From positions 186,001-250,000 of the forward strand of contig NZ_FXAX01000003.1 of the NCBI RefSeq assembly GCF_900177805.1: a DNA stretch of 64,000 bases, given 5' to 3'. The translations under genes and the position numbers were made by a program. The first letter of the stretch is position 1. Every line of letters begins with the position of its first letter. The stretch is from Fibrobacter sp. UWB13 (lineage in GTDB: Bacteria; Fibrobacterota; Fibrobacteria; Fibrobacterales; Fibrobacteraceae). The notes under the pieces are model-generated. The model worked only from the letters and a program-made list of their open reading frames with translations. It was not told the DNA's origin and searched no databases. Shown here piece after piece: positions 3,627 to 56,488 of the stretch.

Positions 3627-3995
3627 CGGGTAGCGGATGGCCGCCGGCAGCGAGCAATCAAAGCTGGAGGAAAGTCCGGGCACCGCAGGGCATGATGCTG
3701 GATAACGTCCAGGCGCGGTAACGCGACAGAAAGTGCAGCAGAGAATAGACCGCCCGCAGCAATGCGGGTAAGGGTGAAACGGCGAGGTAAGAGCTCACCG
3801 CACGACTGGTGACAGAAGTGGCTAGGTAAACCTCATCCGGTGCAAGACCAAGCAGGATTCCGTTCGAAAGAACCTGGTGCGGCCCGTGCCAGCTGGATAT
3901 CCGGGTAGGTCGCTTGAGGCGGTCGGTAACGATTCGTCCAGAGAGATGGTCATCGCTTCGCAAGAAGTACAGAACCCGGCTTATAACTACTCAAC
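3627..3995 (+). ncRNA. rnpB: RNase P RNA, bacterial type A
   Basis: This is the catalytic RNA that trims tRNA 5' leaders. The diagnostic conserved blocks are present: GAGGAAAGTCCGGGC near the 5' end (from 3667), the internal GGTAAGGGTGAAACGGCGAGGTAAGAG-type region (about 3767-3793), and ACAGAACCCGGCTTAT near the 3' end (3969-3984). The GGGTAG near 3628 can pair with CTACTC at 3987-3992 as helix P1. Length of about 370 nt is normal for type A. The ends are inferred from P1 and the promoter and may be off by a few bases. Confidence 0.95.
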
Positions 3996-3999
3996 TTTG

Positions 4000-4702: not shown

Positions 4703-4783
4703 ATATCTAACCTAGAACTTAGCAAAAAAAGAGCTCGAGCAGGGGCAATTTAAATGCACGCGAAGTACGATTTTGGCCATTTG

Positions 4784-5000
4784 ATGCTACTAATTTTAGA
4801 TTTTTCCATTTTCAGTAGCATAAATTCTACTTTATCCACAATATTTATAGATAAAAACACTTTTCGCGTGCTACAAAATTCGCATTTTGACCTTTTTTGT
4901 AGTACAAATCCAGCGGACAAGCTCAAAATCGGCCTACATTTCGCTTAATTTGTCCCAAAATTATGCTACAAAAACGGAGAATTCACCCATTTAGTAGCAT
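4784..5000. repeat. phased inverted-repeat array, copy 1 (three 38-bp units)
   Basis: Three units at 4784-4821, 4868-4905 and 4963-5000 are each exactly 38 bp. Each begins with a half-site of the form RTGCTACWRA and ends with its reverse complement. Unit starts are 84 and 95 bases apart. A degenerate extra half-site TTCTACTTTAT lies at 4825, 41 bases from the first unit start. A second copy with the same layout lies at 52517-52732. The array fills the 397-bp gap between the divergent permease and small-membrane-protein genes; no gene is seen in it. Confidence 0.9.
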
Positions 5001-5056
5001 ATTTCTGCATTTTCCGTATCACTTTTCGCACCAATTTGCTTCAGAGTACACAAAAA

Positions 5057-9725: not shown

Positions 9726-10727
9726 ATGTCTTTTTCCATACAGAAAGTCATTGACTCAATCAAAGGAATCTTTGAATATTTCGGTTTCGACAGTGAAGTC
9801 AAACAAGCTCAAAAACCGAAGGAACTCCCCATGTATCTGACCTCAAACCGTGATTTTTTTGATGTAAATATTTGTGGCATGAACTTTACCGCCATCGTTC
9901 CGAATAATGGCGAGACGTTCTCCGCAGAAGCGTTGTCCAAACAAATCGAGAAATACAAACAGGCTTTTTCACAACCAACAGCCTTCTTTTTCGAAAACAC
10001 CACTGCGATCCAACAAAAAGCACTCATTGAAAACCGTATTCCATTTTTAGCTAATCCAACCATCGTATTTTTACCCTTTCTCGGCATCGCCATGCAACAG
10101 CGACGGAAATCGAGTTACGAGTACTCCGTACAAAAAGAAAAAATGAGTCCCCAAACGCAATTGCTCTTTTTATACATGCTTTATAAAGTCAAGGATGCAT
10201 ATGTATCACGCACGCAGGCGGCACAAGATTGCGGACTCAATGTTATGGCTGTTTCAAGAAGTGGCAAAGAGCTTGCTTCATACGGTTTAATAAAACAGGA
10301 AGAACACGGCAGAAGTGTCTTGATGACTTGCGCGTTAAACGGGAAGGATCTTATACAAAAAGCCATGTCCTACCTAATAAGTCCTGTGCAAAAAAATATC
10401 ATTGTAAAAAAGACCGATTTAAAAGCCAATTTTCCAATCGCAGGAGAGACCGCACTTTCTTCAATGACAATGCTCGGCTCACCAAAAATAGAAACCTGTG
10501 CAAATGCAAAAAAAGAGATTTCCCCAAACATTGTGGACTATACAAAAGACGCACGGTGGCTTGCACCTGAAACATTGACGAACGTGCAAATATGGAAATA
10601 CAATCCAACGCAGTTCACAAAAGATGGATGTGTGGATCCACTTTCACTTTACTTATCAATGAAGGATTCAAAAGACGAAAGAATTCAGGCTTGTCTAGAC
10701 GAAATGATGGAAAAAACAAAATGGTAA
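9726..10727 (+). CDS. putative antitoxin/regulator with winged-helix domain, paired with a nucleotidyltransferase
   Basis: 333 residues. The middle (about 140-215) reads as a winged helix: SPQTQLLFLYMLYKVKD, SRTQAAQDCGLNVMAVSRS, then LASYGLIKQEEHG. The N-terminal 140 and C-terminal 110 residues match nothing I know. It overlaps the nucleotidyltransferase gene by seven bases and has inverted repeats in its promoter, the arrangement of AbiEi-AbiEii type IV toxin-antitoxin pairs, in which the regulator represses its own operon. The antitoxin role is inferred from context. Base composition is distinctly AT-rich compared with the flanking core genes, suggesting transfer. Confidence 0.6.
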   Translation: MSFSIQKVIDSIKGIFEYFGFDSEVKQAQKPKELPMYLTSNRDFFDVNICGMNFTAIVPNNGETFSAEALSKQIEKYKQAFSQPTAFFFENTTAIQQKALIENRIPFLANPTIVFLPFLGIAMQQRRKSSYEYSVQKEKMSPQTQLLFLYMLYKVKDAYVSRTQAAQDCGLNVMAVSRSGKELASYGLIKQEEHGRSVLMTCALNGKDLIQKAMSYLISPVQKNIIVKKTDLKANFPIAGETALSSMTMLGSPKIETCANAKKEISPNIVDYTKDARWLAPETLTNVQIWKYNPTQFTKDGCVDPLSLYLSMKDSKDERIQACLDEMMEKTKW

Positions 10728-11467
10728 ACGGAATAGAAAAATTTAGAGAAAAATTTGAAAAATTCAACGACGGCTATGCAGTTATCGGCGGCACAGCTTG
10801 TTCCGTCGTTATGGAAACAGAAGGCTTGCCATTTCGCACTACAAAAGACATTGACGCAATCCTGATTGTTGATGCAGACAATTTCACCGAATTTGCGAAA
10901 GAATTTTGGAACTTTGTCAAAGAAGGCGGATACAAATGCGGCTGGAAAGGTGACGAAAACCCGCATTTTTACAGGTTTACCGAACCACATGCAGGATACC
11001 CCTCGCAAATCGAATTCTTTTCAAGAAGTGCATATCCGATGACAATCCCCAAAGGAATAACCCCCGTGCACGTTGAAGACGATATATCCAGCCTTTCAGC
11101 AATCGTGTTGGACGATGACTATTACAGTTTACTGAAAAATAGTTGCGAAAAAATGAACGGAATTCGCATTCTCAAAGCGGAATACCTAATCGTTTTTAAA
11201 ATGTATGCACGAATTAATTTGGAAACAGAAAAGGAAGCAGGAAAACAGGTTAATGACAAAGATTTCAAGAAACATAAGAACGATGTTTTCCGATTATTGC
11301 AGTTGATCCCACCAGACTTAAAAGTTTCGTTGCCTGAAAAAATCAAGCGCCATATTGAACAGTTTTTGAATTCCATGCAAAACGAACCGCTTGACGAACA
11401 GGTGCTAGGAATGATTAGTAAGAGCGAAGCGTTAAGAGTGTTGAAGGAAGTGTATTTGTCTAAATAG
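10721..11467 (+). CDS. AbiEii-like nucleotidyltransferase (putative toxin)
   Basis: 248 residues from the ATG at 10721, which lies inside the last codons of the preceding gene. The nucleotidyltransferase core is clear: AVIGGTACSVVMETEG followed by RTTKDIDAIL (the GG and DxD residues) and a third acidic strand (YPSQIEFFSR). AbiEii-type enzymes attach nucleotides to tRNA or other targets and arrest growth. Whether this one is toxic is not shown. Together with the upstream gene it forms a two-gene cassette. Confidence 0.7.
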   Translation: MVNGIEKFREKFEKFNDGYAVIGGTACSVVMETEGLPFRTTKDIDAILIVDADNFTEFAKEFWNFVKEGGYKCGWKGDENPHFYRFTEPHAGYPSQIEFFSRSAYPMTIPKGITPVHVEDDISSLSAIVLDDDYYSLLKNSCEKMNGIRILKAEYLIVFKMYARINLETEKEAGKQVNDKDFKKHKNDVFRLLQLIPPDLKVSLPEKIKRHIEQFLNSMQNEPLDEQVLGMISKSEALRVLKEVYLSK

Positions 11468-11551
11468 CTAAATCATTTTTTAATATATTTTTTTTACAAA
11501 AAAATCTTCACTATCTATACAAAAAATCATTGATTGCAAAGGATAAAAATC

Positions 11552-13726
11552 ATGGCAAGAAAACCATTGGAACCTAATTTATGGACTATTGGAGACACAT
11601 TCAAACACATGTATTCCGTACCTGTGTACCAACGTCCATATTCCTGGGAATCTACACAAATCAATGTAATTTTGGACGATATTTTCAAAGCTTATAAGCA
11701 ACCCGAATCAGATCGTGAAGAAGGCTACTTTATAGGAAGCATCTACATACACGATAAAAATGAAAAATTAAAAGGACTAATTCAAAAGTATGAAATCATT
11801 GATGGGCAACAGAGATTAACAACCATATCGTTGCTTTTATTATCAATATATTCGCTTGCAGTCCAGTACAATATTTCAGAAACCGAACAAACATTTCTCA
11901 ACATCAAAGCGGCTCTTTGGAAATATATAGATCGATCTTACGATAAACAAAATAGAGCGGTTTCGTTAAACAGCATCGAAAAGAAAAGCTTTGAGGATCT
12001 TTACAACACGTGTTTTGAAAAACCAAATAAAATACTAGACTTTTGTAACCAATATAAAACAAATAATAATTTTGAAAAACGTGTAATAGAGAATTTTAGA
12101 ACTATTTACAACTACGTTGAAAAAGAATTTCCCAAGGGAAAAAATAACGACCTTCTGAATTTCGCAGATTTTCTACTAAACTTCGTACAGATTATAGCTA
12201 TTGATTCAACCTGCAGCATAAGCAAGGCTTTTTCAATATTTGAATCCATAAACAGTAAAGGAAAGCCCCTAGACGAGATTGATAAAATAAAAACATATAT
12301 ATTCTCGGAACTAGACGAAGCATCCTATGATTACTATTTAGATCTATGGGGTAAACTGATTATCGAAACAAATGACCAATTGTACGACTATATGTACAAC
12401 TACATTAAAGCGTACATTTCATTCTATCGACAAAATATTAATGTTGATAATTTCAAGTCGCTAAGTCGGAATGAAATACAAGTATATTTCAAGAAAAACA
12501 GCATTACAGAAGCTCTCAAAGCAATTCTTGACGACATGTACAAAAAAGTCAAGTTCTACAACATGCTTGGGGACGTGAACAAAGCGAATGAGCTCGTAAA
12601 AAACAATGAATTTCGATTTTATTATACAATATTCAACCAAATCAACTACAAGCATCCAAAGCCACTATTTCTCCGTTGCATAGAAGAATATGCATCAAAA
12701 AAAATATCAAAAGACAATTTAGTGAGTATCATCCGTGAAACGGTAAAATTCATGTTTGAATTCCTTACAATTAGCGACCGAGATAGCAAGGATGCAATCA
12801 CAATGTTTTCAACAATAATGAATGACATATACATTCGTTCAAGCGTAAATAAAGACATTGTGATTAATGTAATTGCAAATGAAATGATTTCTAAAGCAGT
12901 CACTACAGATAGAATAAAATCCAATTTAGCAAACATGGATGCATATGAACAAAACAAGAAAATAGCCGTAGCTCTTCTAGCTCTATACGAATCCACAAGC
13001 ATCGACAAAAAAGGTAAAGTCAAAATTTCCTATGACAAGGCATACACCCTACTTCATAATTACGGACAGACATTCAGCTTAGATCACCTATTGGTTCAAA
13101 CACCAGCTCCGAAATCTGAATTTAAATATTATCGCGACGCCAATGATAAACTAGTCTTAAAAAAAGGACATGACTTCGAACCAGGAGTAGTTATTCCAGG
13201 AATGGAGTACGATCAATTTACCAAAATAGTATTAAACAAAATCGGAAACCTTCGTTTATGGTACAAAGATGAAAATTCTTCACGACAAAACGATGCTATA
13301 CAATTAAACGCCTATACTGGATTTAATACATACAAAAAAATTCAAAATAGAAGTAAAAACATAATTGATACATTAGTCGATAAATGTTTGCCAATGTCCA
13401 ACTACAATCCAAATTTAAAGCTTATTTCAGACCTAAAAGAGAACGCACTTCCTAAATTAAACAAACTTATCGAATACGGATTACTTCATATCGGCGATAA
13501 ATTATACATTACAACTGAAAATAACAATTCAGAAGCTACACTATTAGACGGCTCATATGTAGAATACAAAGGGAAAAAAATGAAAATCAGTGATTGGGGT
13601 TGTAATGTTACTGGAAAGAAAAATGTAAACATCTACACAATTTCAGCACTTGTTGGAGAAGATGAAACTTTACAACAAAAAAGAATCAAATATACGATAA
13701 ATCATAATGAAGAAACCCTAGGATAA
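11552..13726 (+). CDS. DUF262/DUF1524 protein (GmrSD-like) with RAMA-like C-terminus
   Basis: 724 residues from the ATG at 11552 (AAAGGA upstream; an in-frame TTG at 11534 is less likely). The N-terminal DUF262 ParB-like NTPase/nuclease domain is unmistakable: VPVYQRPYSWE, IIDGQQRLTTI and FESINSKGKPLDEIDKIK. A DUF1524 His-Me-finger-like segment follows (FSLDHLLVQTP, about residue 515). The last 90 residues (LNKLIEYGLLHIGDKLYI ... ATLLDGSYVEYKGKKM) resemble the RAMA domain found in modification-dependent restriction proteins. GmrSD-family proteins restrict modified phage DNA. AT-rich, single gene, between the AbiE-like pair and recQ. Confidence 0.75.
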   Translation: MARKPLEPNLWTIGDTFKHMYSVPVYQRPYSWESTQINVILDDIFKAYKQPESDREEGYFIGSIYIHDKNEKLKGLIQKYEIIDGQQRLTTISLLLLSIYSLAVQYNISETEQTFLNIKAALWKYIDRSYDKQNRAVSLNSIEKKSFEDLYNTCFEKPNKILDFCNQYKTNNNFEKRVIENFRTIYNYVEKEFPKGKNNDLLNFADFLLNFVQIIAIDSTCSISKAFSIFESINSKGKPLDEIDKIKTYIFSELDEASYDYYLDLWGKLIIETNDQLYDYMYNYIKAYISFYRQNINVDNFKSLSRNEIQVYFKKNSITEALKAILDDMYKKVKFYNMLGDVNKANELVKNNEFRFYYTIFNQINYKHPKPLFLRCIEEYASKKISKDNLVSIIRETVKFMFEFLTISDRDSKDAITMFSTIMNDIYIRSSVNKDIVINVIANEMISKAVTTDRIKSNLANMDAYEQNKKIAVALLALYESTSIDKKGKVKISYDKAYTLLHNYGQTFSLDHLLVQTPAPKSEFKYYRDANDKLVLKKGHDFEPGVVIPGMEYDQFTKIVLNKIGNLRLWYKDENSSRQNDAIQLNAYTGFNTYKKIQNRSKNIIDTLVDKCLPMSNYNPNLKLISDLKENALPKLNKLIEYGLLHIGDKLYITTENNNSEATLLDGSYVEYKGKKMKISDWGCNVTGKKNVNIYTISALVGEDETLQQKRIKYTINHNEETLG

Positions 13727-52482: not shown

Positions 52483-52508
52483 AAAAGCCGGTTTAATCCG
52501 GCTTTTTT
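52483..52508 (+). terminator. intrinsic terminator of the ferredoxin-reductase operon
   Basis: AAAAGCCGG-TTTAAT-CCGGCTTTTTTG. Confidence 0.85.
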
Positions 52509-52516
52509 GCGATTTT

Positions 52517-52732
52517 ATGCTACTAAATTGCAGTTTTCACAATTTTAGTAGCATATTTTCTACTTTATATGTAAAGTTTTAATCTGCGTTCTGCAGTTTC
52601 ATGCTACTAAATTCGTTTTTTTCAACTTTTTGTAGCACGCCAAACCCAAACAACCCCGAATTTTCACCCCAAACACTTAATTTATCTAAAAATCATGCTA
52701 CTAAATTAAGGATTTTCGAGTTTTAGTAGCAC
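52517..52732. repeat. phased inverted-repeat array, copy 2 (three 38-bp units)
   Basis: Units at 52517-52554, 52601-52638 and 52695-52732, each exactly 38 bp with RTGCTACTAA ends in inverted orientation; starts are 84 and 94 bases apart. The TTCTACTTTAT at 52558 is again 41 bases from the first unit start, and a CTTAATTT...AAAAAT block precedes the third unit as in copy 1. It lies between two convergent terminators. Confidence 0.9.
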
Positions 52733-52751
52733 ATTTTTGCAAAAGCGCCCC

Positions 52752-54311: not shown

Positions 54312-55397
54312 ATGAGAAAAAATCAAAAGACTATCAAAGAATTGACCGCTATTAGCTTATTTTCGGGTGCGGGAGGCTTAGATGTCGGCTTTGAATTAGC
54401 CGGGTTCAACTCCGTTTTTGCAAACGAATTTGACCATGATGCAGCAGAAGCATGGCGGCTTAATCGTCCTTCAAAATCTCATATAATGGTGGAAGGGGAT
54501 ATTAAAGACCACATTACCGATTTAGACAAATTCAAAGATATTGATGTTCTTTTTGGCGGTCCCCCTTGTCAAGGTTTTTCAGTCGCTGGGAAGATGGATC
54601 CTAATGACGAACGATCCAAAATGGTATGGCTATTTATGGAGGCTGTGGGAAAAACTCACCCCAAAGTATTCATTATGGAAAATGTAGCCGCTCTTGGCTT
54701 GTTGGACAAGTGGGAACATGTTCGTAAAGGAATTGTCGAAAAAGGACAAACACTCGGTTACGAGGTTTCATTTAAAGTACATCATACATCAGAATACGGT
54801 GTTCCAGAAAAACGAGATCGAGTTATTTTTATCGGTGTCAGAAAAGATGTCGGATCAGTAGATTTATTCTACAAAAAATTAACTTTTTACAAAGCTAAGC
54901 CTCAAACCGCTCGTGAAGTTATCTTATCCGCAGGGAGATTTGGAGAAAAAGATAATCCTCAAACATGTACCGCAAATGTATCCCTTGCAAAACATCCTGT
55001 TATGCGCCGTTCTCCTTACGCAGGAATGTTAGTCAATGGAGCAGGTCGTCCAATTGACTTGGATGACATTGCTCCAACACTTCCAGCATCTATGGGCGGA
55101 AACAAGACTCCTATTGTTGATGAAATCGCATTACATAACACAAATATTCCAAACTGGTTCAAACAATACCATTCAGATTTAATCAACGGAAAGACGGAAC
55201 CCGCAAAAATCAAAATTCCCGCAACAATTCGCAGATTAACAATAAAGGAATGTGCAGCAATACAAACTTTTCCTGTAGGCTATAAATTCAGCGGACGAAA
55301 GACAAAGCAATACAAACAAATAGGAAATGCGGTTCCATGCCGTTTTGCAGAAGCAGTAGCAAAATCCGTGTATGACGCATATTGGGGAGAATACTAA
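54312..55397 (+). CDS. DNA (cytosine-5) methyltransferase of a type II R-M system
   Basis: 361 residues. C5-methyltransferase motifs in order: I (ISLFSGAGGLDVGFELAGF), IV with the catalytic Cys (VLFGGPPCQGFSVAG), VI (FIMENV), VIII-like (VPEKRDRVIFIGVR), IX (RRLTIKECAAIQTFP) and X (YKQIGNAVPCRFAEAVA). AAAGG precedes the ATG. It protects host DNA from the nuclease encoded by the next gene, whose ATG overlaps its stop by one base. AT-rich, unlike the core genes around it, indicating acquisition. Confidence 0.94.
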   Translation: MRKNQKTIKELTAISLFSGAGGLDVGFELAGFNSVFANEFDHDAAEAWRLNRPSKSHIMVEGDIKDHITDLDKFKDIDVLFGGPPCQGFSVAGKMDPNDERSKMVWLFMEAVGKTHPKVFIMENVAALGLLDKWEHVRKGIVEKGQTLGYEVSFKVHHTSEYGVPEKRDRVIFIGVRKDVGSVDLFYKKLTFYKAKPQTAREVILSAGRFGEKDNPQTCTANVSLAKHPVMRRSPYAGMLVNGAGRPIDLDDIAPTLPASMGGNKTPIVDEIALHNTNIPNWFKQYHSDLINGKTEPAKIKIPATIRRLTIKECAAIQTFPVGYKFSGRKTKQYKQIGNAVPCRFAEAVAKSVYDAYWGEY

Positions 55398-56488
55398 TGG
55401 CAATTGACATTGACAAATCTGTAGCAACGAAATTACTTCACGAATCATACAAAGCATGTTCCAACACGCCCACAGTTAATTGTCCAATCAAGGATACTAT
55501 TGATTTTATAATGAGCGGTAAAAACTGCTTGACATACCGTTATATTATGTTTACAGCTTTGCTTGCTAAGGCTGTTGATTCCGAAATTGACATTTTGTCT
55601 TTACAAGTGGATGATTCTTCTGATGGTGCATACAATGCCAGATCACTAGCTTCAGAAGTTGTCTATCCTTTTCAAAAAAACATATTGGGAAACATGCTTA
55701 ATGGGGCAAATAGCGATCCACTTGTAAATAATCCGGCACGTAATCCACGATTAGCAAAAACAACCAAAGCAAGGGGCGATTGCAAAAAAGCTCTTGAACT
55801 ACTATGTGATAATTTACCCAAAATTCAAGATAACCATGAAGCTCGCAAATGTATAGATTACATCGTTTCAATGTTGCTTGAAGCAAAAGCAGCTCGCGAC
55901 ATACAGCAGTCTTTACTTCAAGAATTTTCTGGAAACATGAGTGTTTTCCGCATTCGTGAATTTATGAGTGAATTGTTGGATAAAGGATTTGGCGGAGCCG
56001 CTCTTGTCATTGTAACGACGGCTCTTTACCATTTGCAATATTCGGATGACGAATACAGAATTTCAGCCCATCCCGTAAACCAATCAGGATCATCCAAAAG
56101 ACAATTTAGCGATCTTGACGTATTTCGAGATGATTTGCCTTTTATAGCAACAGAACTGAAAGACAAACCATTTTCATCCTCCGATGTTGACCACGCCGCA
56201 GAAACCGCTTACAAGGCACATGCCAAAAGTTTAATGTTTGTTGCCGGTCGACATTCAACATTCGCATCACAGTTTCCAACATACTTTGACGACGCCCGTA
56301 AAAAATACGCCGATAAAGGAATGTACGTTGGTATTACATCCATAGATAACCTCCTAGATACAATTCTATCAGCACATATTGACTTAAACGCAGCTCACAT
56401 AATTGACATCATCGTCAAAACAGCGGAATCAATTAAAGCGCCAGAAGCTCAAATGTGGGTATATGAGCGAATGTCAGATGCAAATTGA
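55397..56488 (+). CDS. type II restriction endonuclease, possibly SacI-like
   Basis: 363 residues from the ATG at 55397 (TAATG overlap with the methyltransferase). The likely PD-(D/E)XK site is FSDLDVFRDDLPFIATELKDK: Asp, then a strand ending in ELK (E-x-K). The length, the C5-methyltransferase partner and the start (IDKSVATKLLHESYKAC) recall the SacI restriction-enzyme family, but the specificity is not proven from sequence. Confidence 0.72.
   Translation: MAIDIDKSVATKLLHESYKACSNTPTVNCPIKDTIDFIMSGKNCLTYRYIMFTALLAKAVDSEIDILSLQVDDSSDGAYNARSLASEVVYPFQKNILGNMLNGANSDPLVNNPARNPRLAKTTKARGDCKKALELLCDNLPKIQDNHEARKCIDYIVSMLLEAKAARDIQQSLLQEFSGNMSVFRIREFMSELLDKGFGGAALVIVTTALYHLQYSDDEYRISAHPVNQSGSSKRQFSDLDVFRDDLPFIATELKDKPFSSSDVDHAAETAYKAHAKSLMFVAGRHSTFASQFPTYFDDARKKYADKGMYVGITSIDNLLDTILSAHIDLNAAHIIDIIVKTAESIKAPEAQMWVYERMSDAN

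Follow-up and report, generated by a model that had tools for sequence, protein, structure and literature searches.

Helically phased arrays of split palindromes in Fibrobacter and a predicted nuclease-like partner protein

Inverted repeats set in a short array raise several connected questions: whether they act as RNA or as duplex DNA, which protein would recognize them, and how copies came to lie at several places in one genome. The window (the whole 64,000 bp stretch analysed here, from Fibrobacter sp. UWB13, whose 3.80 Mb genome is called G000 and its contigs C1 and C3) holds two such arrays, G and H, both on the forward strand.

Array structure, phasing and copies in the genome

Array G has three units that a sequence scan places at 4784..4821 (ATGCTACTAATTTTAGATTTTTCCATTTTCAGTAGCAT), 4868..4905 (GTGCTACAAAATTCGCATTTTGACCTTTTTTGTAGTAC) and 4963..5000 (ATGCTACAAAAACGGAGAATTCACCCATTTAGTAGCAT): each is exactly 38 bp long and the unit starts are 84 and 95 bp apart, as a preliminary description of 4784-5000 had reported. 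The linkers between them (4822..4867 and 4906..4962) carry the semi-conserved motifs TTTTACTTTAT and CTTAATTTRTCNAAAAT, respectively, and the CTTAATTTRTCNAAAAT motif is also found in arrays of other half-site types. A CTTAATTTRT..AAAAT motif is repeated in the linkers of arrays with unrelated half-sites, for example at window 4942-4962 and at L106 6235-6290. In array H (52517-52732) the scan finds units at 52517..52554, 52601..52638 and 52695..52732, with starts 84 and 94 bp apart. The limits of blast alignments between paralogues define the entire orphan elements as 4771..5013 for G (the array with some 13 bp of conserved A/T-rich sequence to either side) and 52504..52745 for H; element H is flanked by a FAD-dependent oxidoreductase gene and, convergent with it, a branched-chain aminotransferase-like gene whose 3′ end faces the element. 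A search of the window for TGCTAC...GTAGCA with a 24-bp gap and at most two mismatches matched these six units only, against expectations from dinucleotide-based random sequence of 0 (0-1 mismatch) and 0.8 (2 mismatches).

Restriction genes are also present in the window. About 1.6 kb from array H, a C5-cytosine methylase gene is followed by a SacI-like restriction endonuclease gene (54312-56485, +), a complete-looking restriction-modification pair. A GmrSD-type (DUF262/DUF1524-like) restriction endonuclease gene lies at 11534-13723 (+), adjoined by a gene for a 291-aa protein without a Pfam match (10592-11464).

Each unit has the layout RTGCTACWAAA, 16 variable bases with a central T-tract, then TTTWGTAGCAY, and the consensus shows a short A/T tract roughly every 10 bp. 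The preliminary description had favoured a DNA-binding protein over an RNA hairpin, pointing to two paired changes in the second unit of array G and an A-A mismatch in the third. Both are present (A1/T38 to G/C and T8/A31 to A/T in unit 2; A8-A31 in unit 3), and unit 2 also bears one unpaired change, C36 to T. The preference for the site of a sequence-specific DNA-binding protein holds over 30 units: positions 8-31 are A-A or T-T in 12 of them, the outer pair 1-38 is standard in only 14 (non-pairing in 16), and positions 12-27 to 14-25 are mostly unpaired. An RNA element, with three hairpins at work in transcripts, would fit the inverted repeats and the terminators that often precede arrays, but the positions that fail to covary, the absence of an Rfam match and a spacing locked to the DNA helical repeat make it extremely improbable, and RNA structure was rejected on the first two of these grounds. 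At gathering score, the Rfam scan of the window returned RNase P RNA alone (bacterial, class A, 3627-3997, +). A listed open reading frame at 3658-3963 (-) overlaps this RNA and is probably no gene.

The units had also been proposed to be helically phased, and this was borne out. A search of periods from 6 to 21 bp over the genus gave a best period of 10.51 bp (R=0.94, n=58 spacings, 23 half-site types), and one value per half-site type gave R=0.94 against a null maximum of 0.58; three phyla taken separately gave 10.57, 10.59 and 10.47 bp and, pooled, 10.54 bp (R=0.90, n=174 spacings), where spacings that come from the same array or from related ones are not independent. The array finder applied to the wider set was not spacing-blind beyond a minimum, but it gave no preference to 10.5-bp steps. 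Spacings that depart from 10.5-bp multiples were looked for, and the outcome left the phasing standing.

Pattern searches, on which the array counts for G000 rest and which may have passed over array types of other kinds there, found 24 true units genome-wide, all in exactly eight triplets, with zero lone units; a reversed control pattern gave 1 exact match and 7 with 2 mismatches. The triplets start at C1:140441, 392917, 738444, 1366497 and 1544371 and at C3:4013, 190784 (array G) and 238517, and two of the eight are in reverse orientation. All are directional: a step of 84 (83-86) bp is followed by one of 95 (94-95) bp, the spacings being 84/95 in five arrays and 84/94, 83/95 and 86/95 in one each. 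Paralogous arrays align by blast over the array and about 13 bp on each side, where homology ends. Each dispersed copy is therefore a discrete element of about 245 bp, with limits common to all copies, as expected of an insertion sequence or MITE. Between paralogues of the same length, identity is 88% inside half-sites and 44% outside: the half-sites are the part of the copies that is kept, and the low identity elsewhere indicates that the G000 copies are old and have not spread there recently. Of the seven orphan arrays, five or six are found at gene 3′ ends or in convergent intergenic regions, which makes a promoter operator of flanking genes unlikely as their common role. G000 holds two further arrays, of TTACGTGAA type (L111 and L112, at C1:1220353 and 1481618). 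A profile search of the genome found no cognate gene for them, and they are either relics or served by an undetected gene.

A partner gene and its half-sites

Which protein would read the arrays? Arrays with other half-sites occur in other Fibrobacter species, and two of them flank, on both sides, a gene that encodes a member of the partner protein family. By profile search this family has a single member in G000, a protein of 277 aa with its open reading frame at about C1:1365487-1366317 on the minus strand (profile match C1:1365511-1366299), and array D (C1:1366497-1366713) lies 181 bp upstream of the 5′ end of this gene. The DNA-binding protein of the preliminary description still stands, but that description had missed the cognate nuclease-like gene adjoining array D, as well as the large family whose members have other half-sites; for the nucleoid or partition role suggested there, no supporting evidence was found.

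The association of gene and array extends well beyond this genome. TGCTAC arrays of three other genomes (G001, G004 and G006) likewise adjoin a close homologue of the partner gene, which in G004 is flanked by two arrays 92% identical to each other; most Fibrobacter species are without arrays of the TGCTAC type. In a scan of the genus, 28 of 30 family loci had two or more units sharing one half-site within 1.5 kb (the cases of L129 and L152 are weak, and L138 encodes a different, larger protein), against 62 control loci of which 46 show only one unit. Six controls have three units: four are known orphan arrays (L031, L057, L074, L093) and the other two are also orphan-like. Nearly every genus locus has its array 5′ of the gene, and some have another one behind it. 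A scan of named genomes places the family in Fibrobacter, Treponema, Lachnospiraceae (Butyrivibrio, Roseburia) and Clostridiaceae, and at least two upstream units occur at 24 of 27 loci in Fibrobacterota, 18 of 19 in Spirochaetota and 15 of 27 in Bacillota, compared with 1, 3 and 2 control stretches of the same loci, respectively. Relatives mostly have an upstream array of their own, each with a different half-site, so that one array type goes with one protein. One Treponema genome has 20 copies of a TACGGACG unit, distributed over an array at the gene and three orphan arrays; this unit is absent from the three other Treponema genomes searched. Nine separate matches to the nuclease family and several different array types were seen in one Fibrobacter genome (G024), on several contigs.

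The partner protein is predicted to combine a beta-tipped helical hairpin with a PD-(D/E)XK/Vsr-like nuclease domain. In the model of its closest named homologue (L154, mean pLDDT 95.5), a helix (12-35), three short strands (41-63) and a second helix (69-103) are followed by a nuclease-like domain. The motifs RSKSE, YE, PDF and WEHxG are invariant in 28 proteins of the genus and nearly invariant in 66 from the three phyla, and the nuclease domain retains invariant E, D, E and H residues. Structural alignment of that domain gave I-Bth0305I (3r3p; Z 8.0, 92 residues, rmsd 3.0), TnsA (1f1z; Z 7.6), Bax1 (7.6) and Vsr (Z 6.5), and Z values near 8 are no more than suggestive of a nuclease fold. Foldseek alone returned nothing below 0.001, so the placement of the protein in a nuclease family is made at the level of the fold. 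The N-terminal hairpin alone had generic helical-hairpin matches only, and in viral contigs the nuclease domain is present alone. In a Pfam/NCBIfam scan of the 66 members no family was matched by more than one of them and none convincingly; PHROGs gave no useful match for the protein and a PDB sequence search gave none. The family apparently lies outside every curated model and, as far as the open-access literature goes, is apparently undescribed.

Half-sites aligned on the unit dyad share a loose common form, roughly TTACNNNCTAAA, and their differences follow those of the protein. Pairs with N-terminal identity of at least 60% have a mean half-site identity of 0.88, and those below 35% have about 0.5 (Mantel p 0.0005). 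Half-site identity is predicted by one segment alone, the beta-tip (residues 41-67), at a level that 0 of 500 permutations reach. In a column-by-column test run after overall similarity had been removed, the leading beta-tip residues were 47, 62, 61, 48, 52, 43, 45, 60 and 64. Because of this covariation, predicted binding is well supported, and the cognate protein very probably binds the half-sites. The data support an arrangement in which the beta-tip would read the half-site, each unit offering two half-sites and each face-aligned array several units.

Orphan arrays between species and what the system may do

The place of array G is occupied in G006 by an ortholog with half-sites 91% identical and the remainder 63%; the corresponding figures for an ortholog of array D are 91% and 66%. 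Array H half-sites have drifted in G006 to a TGYTACC-like form. At two loci, G004 carries TTACGTCAA-type arrays where G000 and G001 carry the TTACGTGAA type, and since both flanks can be aligned, the half-sites of an array differ in concert at a fixed place. The G locus itself carries a TTACGTCAA array in G004; in G001 it has just one decayed unit, and a deletion begins immediately behind unit 1. Kept half-sites and concerted differences favour the idea that orphan arrays may still be in use.

The H site is filled in G000 and G006 and empty in G001 and G014; comparison of filled and empty forms revealed no target-site duplication there, and the empty sites may represent loss. In G014, array D and most of the partner gene have been lost, leaving a 3′ piece of the gene, and one breakpoint of this deletion falls exactly on the last base of array D. 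With the G001 deletion at the G locus, this suggests, from few cases, that breaks may occur at arrays. A clean insertion footprint for array B was not obtained, as regions downstream of prfC are too divergent between species. Three species have an array 3′ of the branched-chain aminotransferase gene (L077 2127-2355, L074 2256-2470, and L057), with a half-site that differs per species (TGCTAC, TGTTACC, TTTGTCAC); this is either a recurrent site or one array with drifted half-sites.

How might arrays and protein work together? We consider it likely that the arrays serve a stand-alone, sequence-specific nuclease-like protein as docking elements, non-autonomous and acted on in trans, in a manner comparable to REPIN/RAYT systems. 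The protein, encoded once in G000 beside array D, would dock on double-stranded arrays, most likely as one dimer per 38-bp unit with one beta-tip per half-site (RTGCTACWAA), and three phased units on one helix face would bring several dimers into one assembly. The other seven G000 arrays, including G and H, would be non-autonomous copies of about 245 bp, acted on in trans. DNA might be cleaved at or beside the units, and the arrays (and the gene) could spread through cut-and-repair or transposition; dispersal as an element by or with the nuclease is, in our judgement, a shade better than an even proposition. The host might also benefit. Catalytic residues that are conserved, the discreteness of the elements, duplicate arrays on both sides of the gene and a patchy distribution of types among species favour what would be a mobile REPIN-like system; mobility and continuing use of the orphans can be compatible. 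Several observations tell against this reading: arrays occur at just 15 of 27 Bacillota loci, TTACGTGAA arrays persist in G000 without a detected gene, the G000 arrays are old, the H site shows no target-site duplication and its empty forms may stem from loss, and structural Z values near 8 are not decisive.

An array that almost always lies upstream of its own gene, the strict phasing (like that of looping operators or iterons) and orphan sites that are under purifying selection and differ in concert between species would all fit a regulatory or nucleoprotein system used by the host: a domesticated DNA-binding protein, its nuclease fold minor or rarely active, would autoregulate from the upstream array, and dispersed arrays would serve looping, gene regulation or chromosome organisation. 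Such a system would hardly explain nuclease residues that are invariant in the genus and nearly so across three phyla, the patchy presence of arrays (the TGCTAC type is missing from most Fibrobacter species), orphans that often lie between convergent genes and not at promoters, or the fast turnover of half-site types, and we regard it as unlikely. A selfish or defensive nuclease, held on the chromosome by arrays that act as self-marks or decoys and aimed at invading DNA or rival elements, is much more doubtful still. Specificity does diversify quickly, there can be several types per genome (as in the nine matches of G024), and the C-terminal domain matches the PADLOC profile of candidate defence proteins PDC-S68 (E about 1e-23), but nothing outside the nuclease domain is similar (profile positions 1086-1217 of 1221), partner genes are absent, and the restriction-modification genes near array H are unlinked to the nuclease family. 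The docking element that we favour can then be set beside systems already described.

Comparison with known systems

Several known systems share parts of this organization. The PDC-S68 proteins have a homologous C-terminal nuclease domain, but their profiles are about 1200 aa long and the last ~130 positions alone match. EDxHD or PD-(D/E)XK homing endonucleases such as I-Bth0305I, which is reported to dimerise on a target of nearly 60 bp (PMC3943268), are likewise encoded by stand-alone genes, and the nuclease domain of I-Bth0305I gave the closest of the suggestive fold matches. Their targets are not described as gene-carried arrays, whereas the sites of the partner protein adjoin its gene and are dispersed as multi-unit copies. 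TnsA of Tn7 appears to resemble the partner in the fold of its nuclease domain. At its ends Tn7 also has several protein-binding sites in a set order, but these are for TnsB; the arrays consist of palindromic units and are not transposon ends, and a TnsB/TnsC-like gene was not seen next to the partner gene. Iterons and parC/parS-type centromeres are phased binding-site arrays upstream of the gene for their binding protein. In contrast, the arrays described here are chromosomal, dispersed and made of inverted-repeat units, and the partner is nuclease-like, not an initiator or partition protein.

The closest parallel is RAYT (TnpA-REP) and its REPINs: a stand-alone enzyme gene is flanked by palindromic repeats that have dispersed extragenic non-autonomous copies, the repeat co-evolves with the enzyme, and several unrelated repeat families exist among species (PMC3116915, PMC8266576). 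All four traits are common to the nuclease-linked arrays, in which dispersed extragenic copies accompany one enzyme gene adjoining a copy, and repeat and protein covary. The enzymes differ: RAYT is an HUH tyrosine transposase, and the array partner has a predicted helical hairpin and PD-(D/E)XK/Vsr-like fold. The repeats differ too. With half-sites about 24 bp apart and non-pairing positions, the arrays lack the continuous hairpin of a REP, and pairing over the 30 units does not indicate palindromes able to form single-stranded hairpins. Unlike REPINs, they consist of several units phased at 10.5-bp multiples, and there are about 8 copies where REPINs number hundreds.

A search of open-access literature found neither such arrays nor the protein family described. 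We lean toward regarding them as a class of prokaryotic element not described before, present in Fibrobacterota, Spirochaetota and Bacillota: a single-gene, beta-tip-guided nuclease with phased split-palindrome arrays that are dispersed non-autonomously, its specificity diversifying through covariation of the beta-tip and a half-site of 7-8 bp. If so, this would account for a class of intergenic repeats of rumen and gut bacteria that are blank in current annotation, and hundreds of natural protein/half-site pairs could be read from genomes, making a beta-tip recognition code directly testable and perhaps yielding compact programmable nucleases. It would also be a second, unrelated bacterial solution to the RAYT/REPIN-style pairing of an enzyme with dispersed palindromes, one that works on duplex DNA in phased assemblies.
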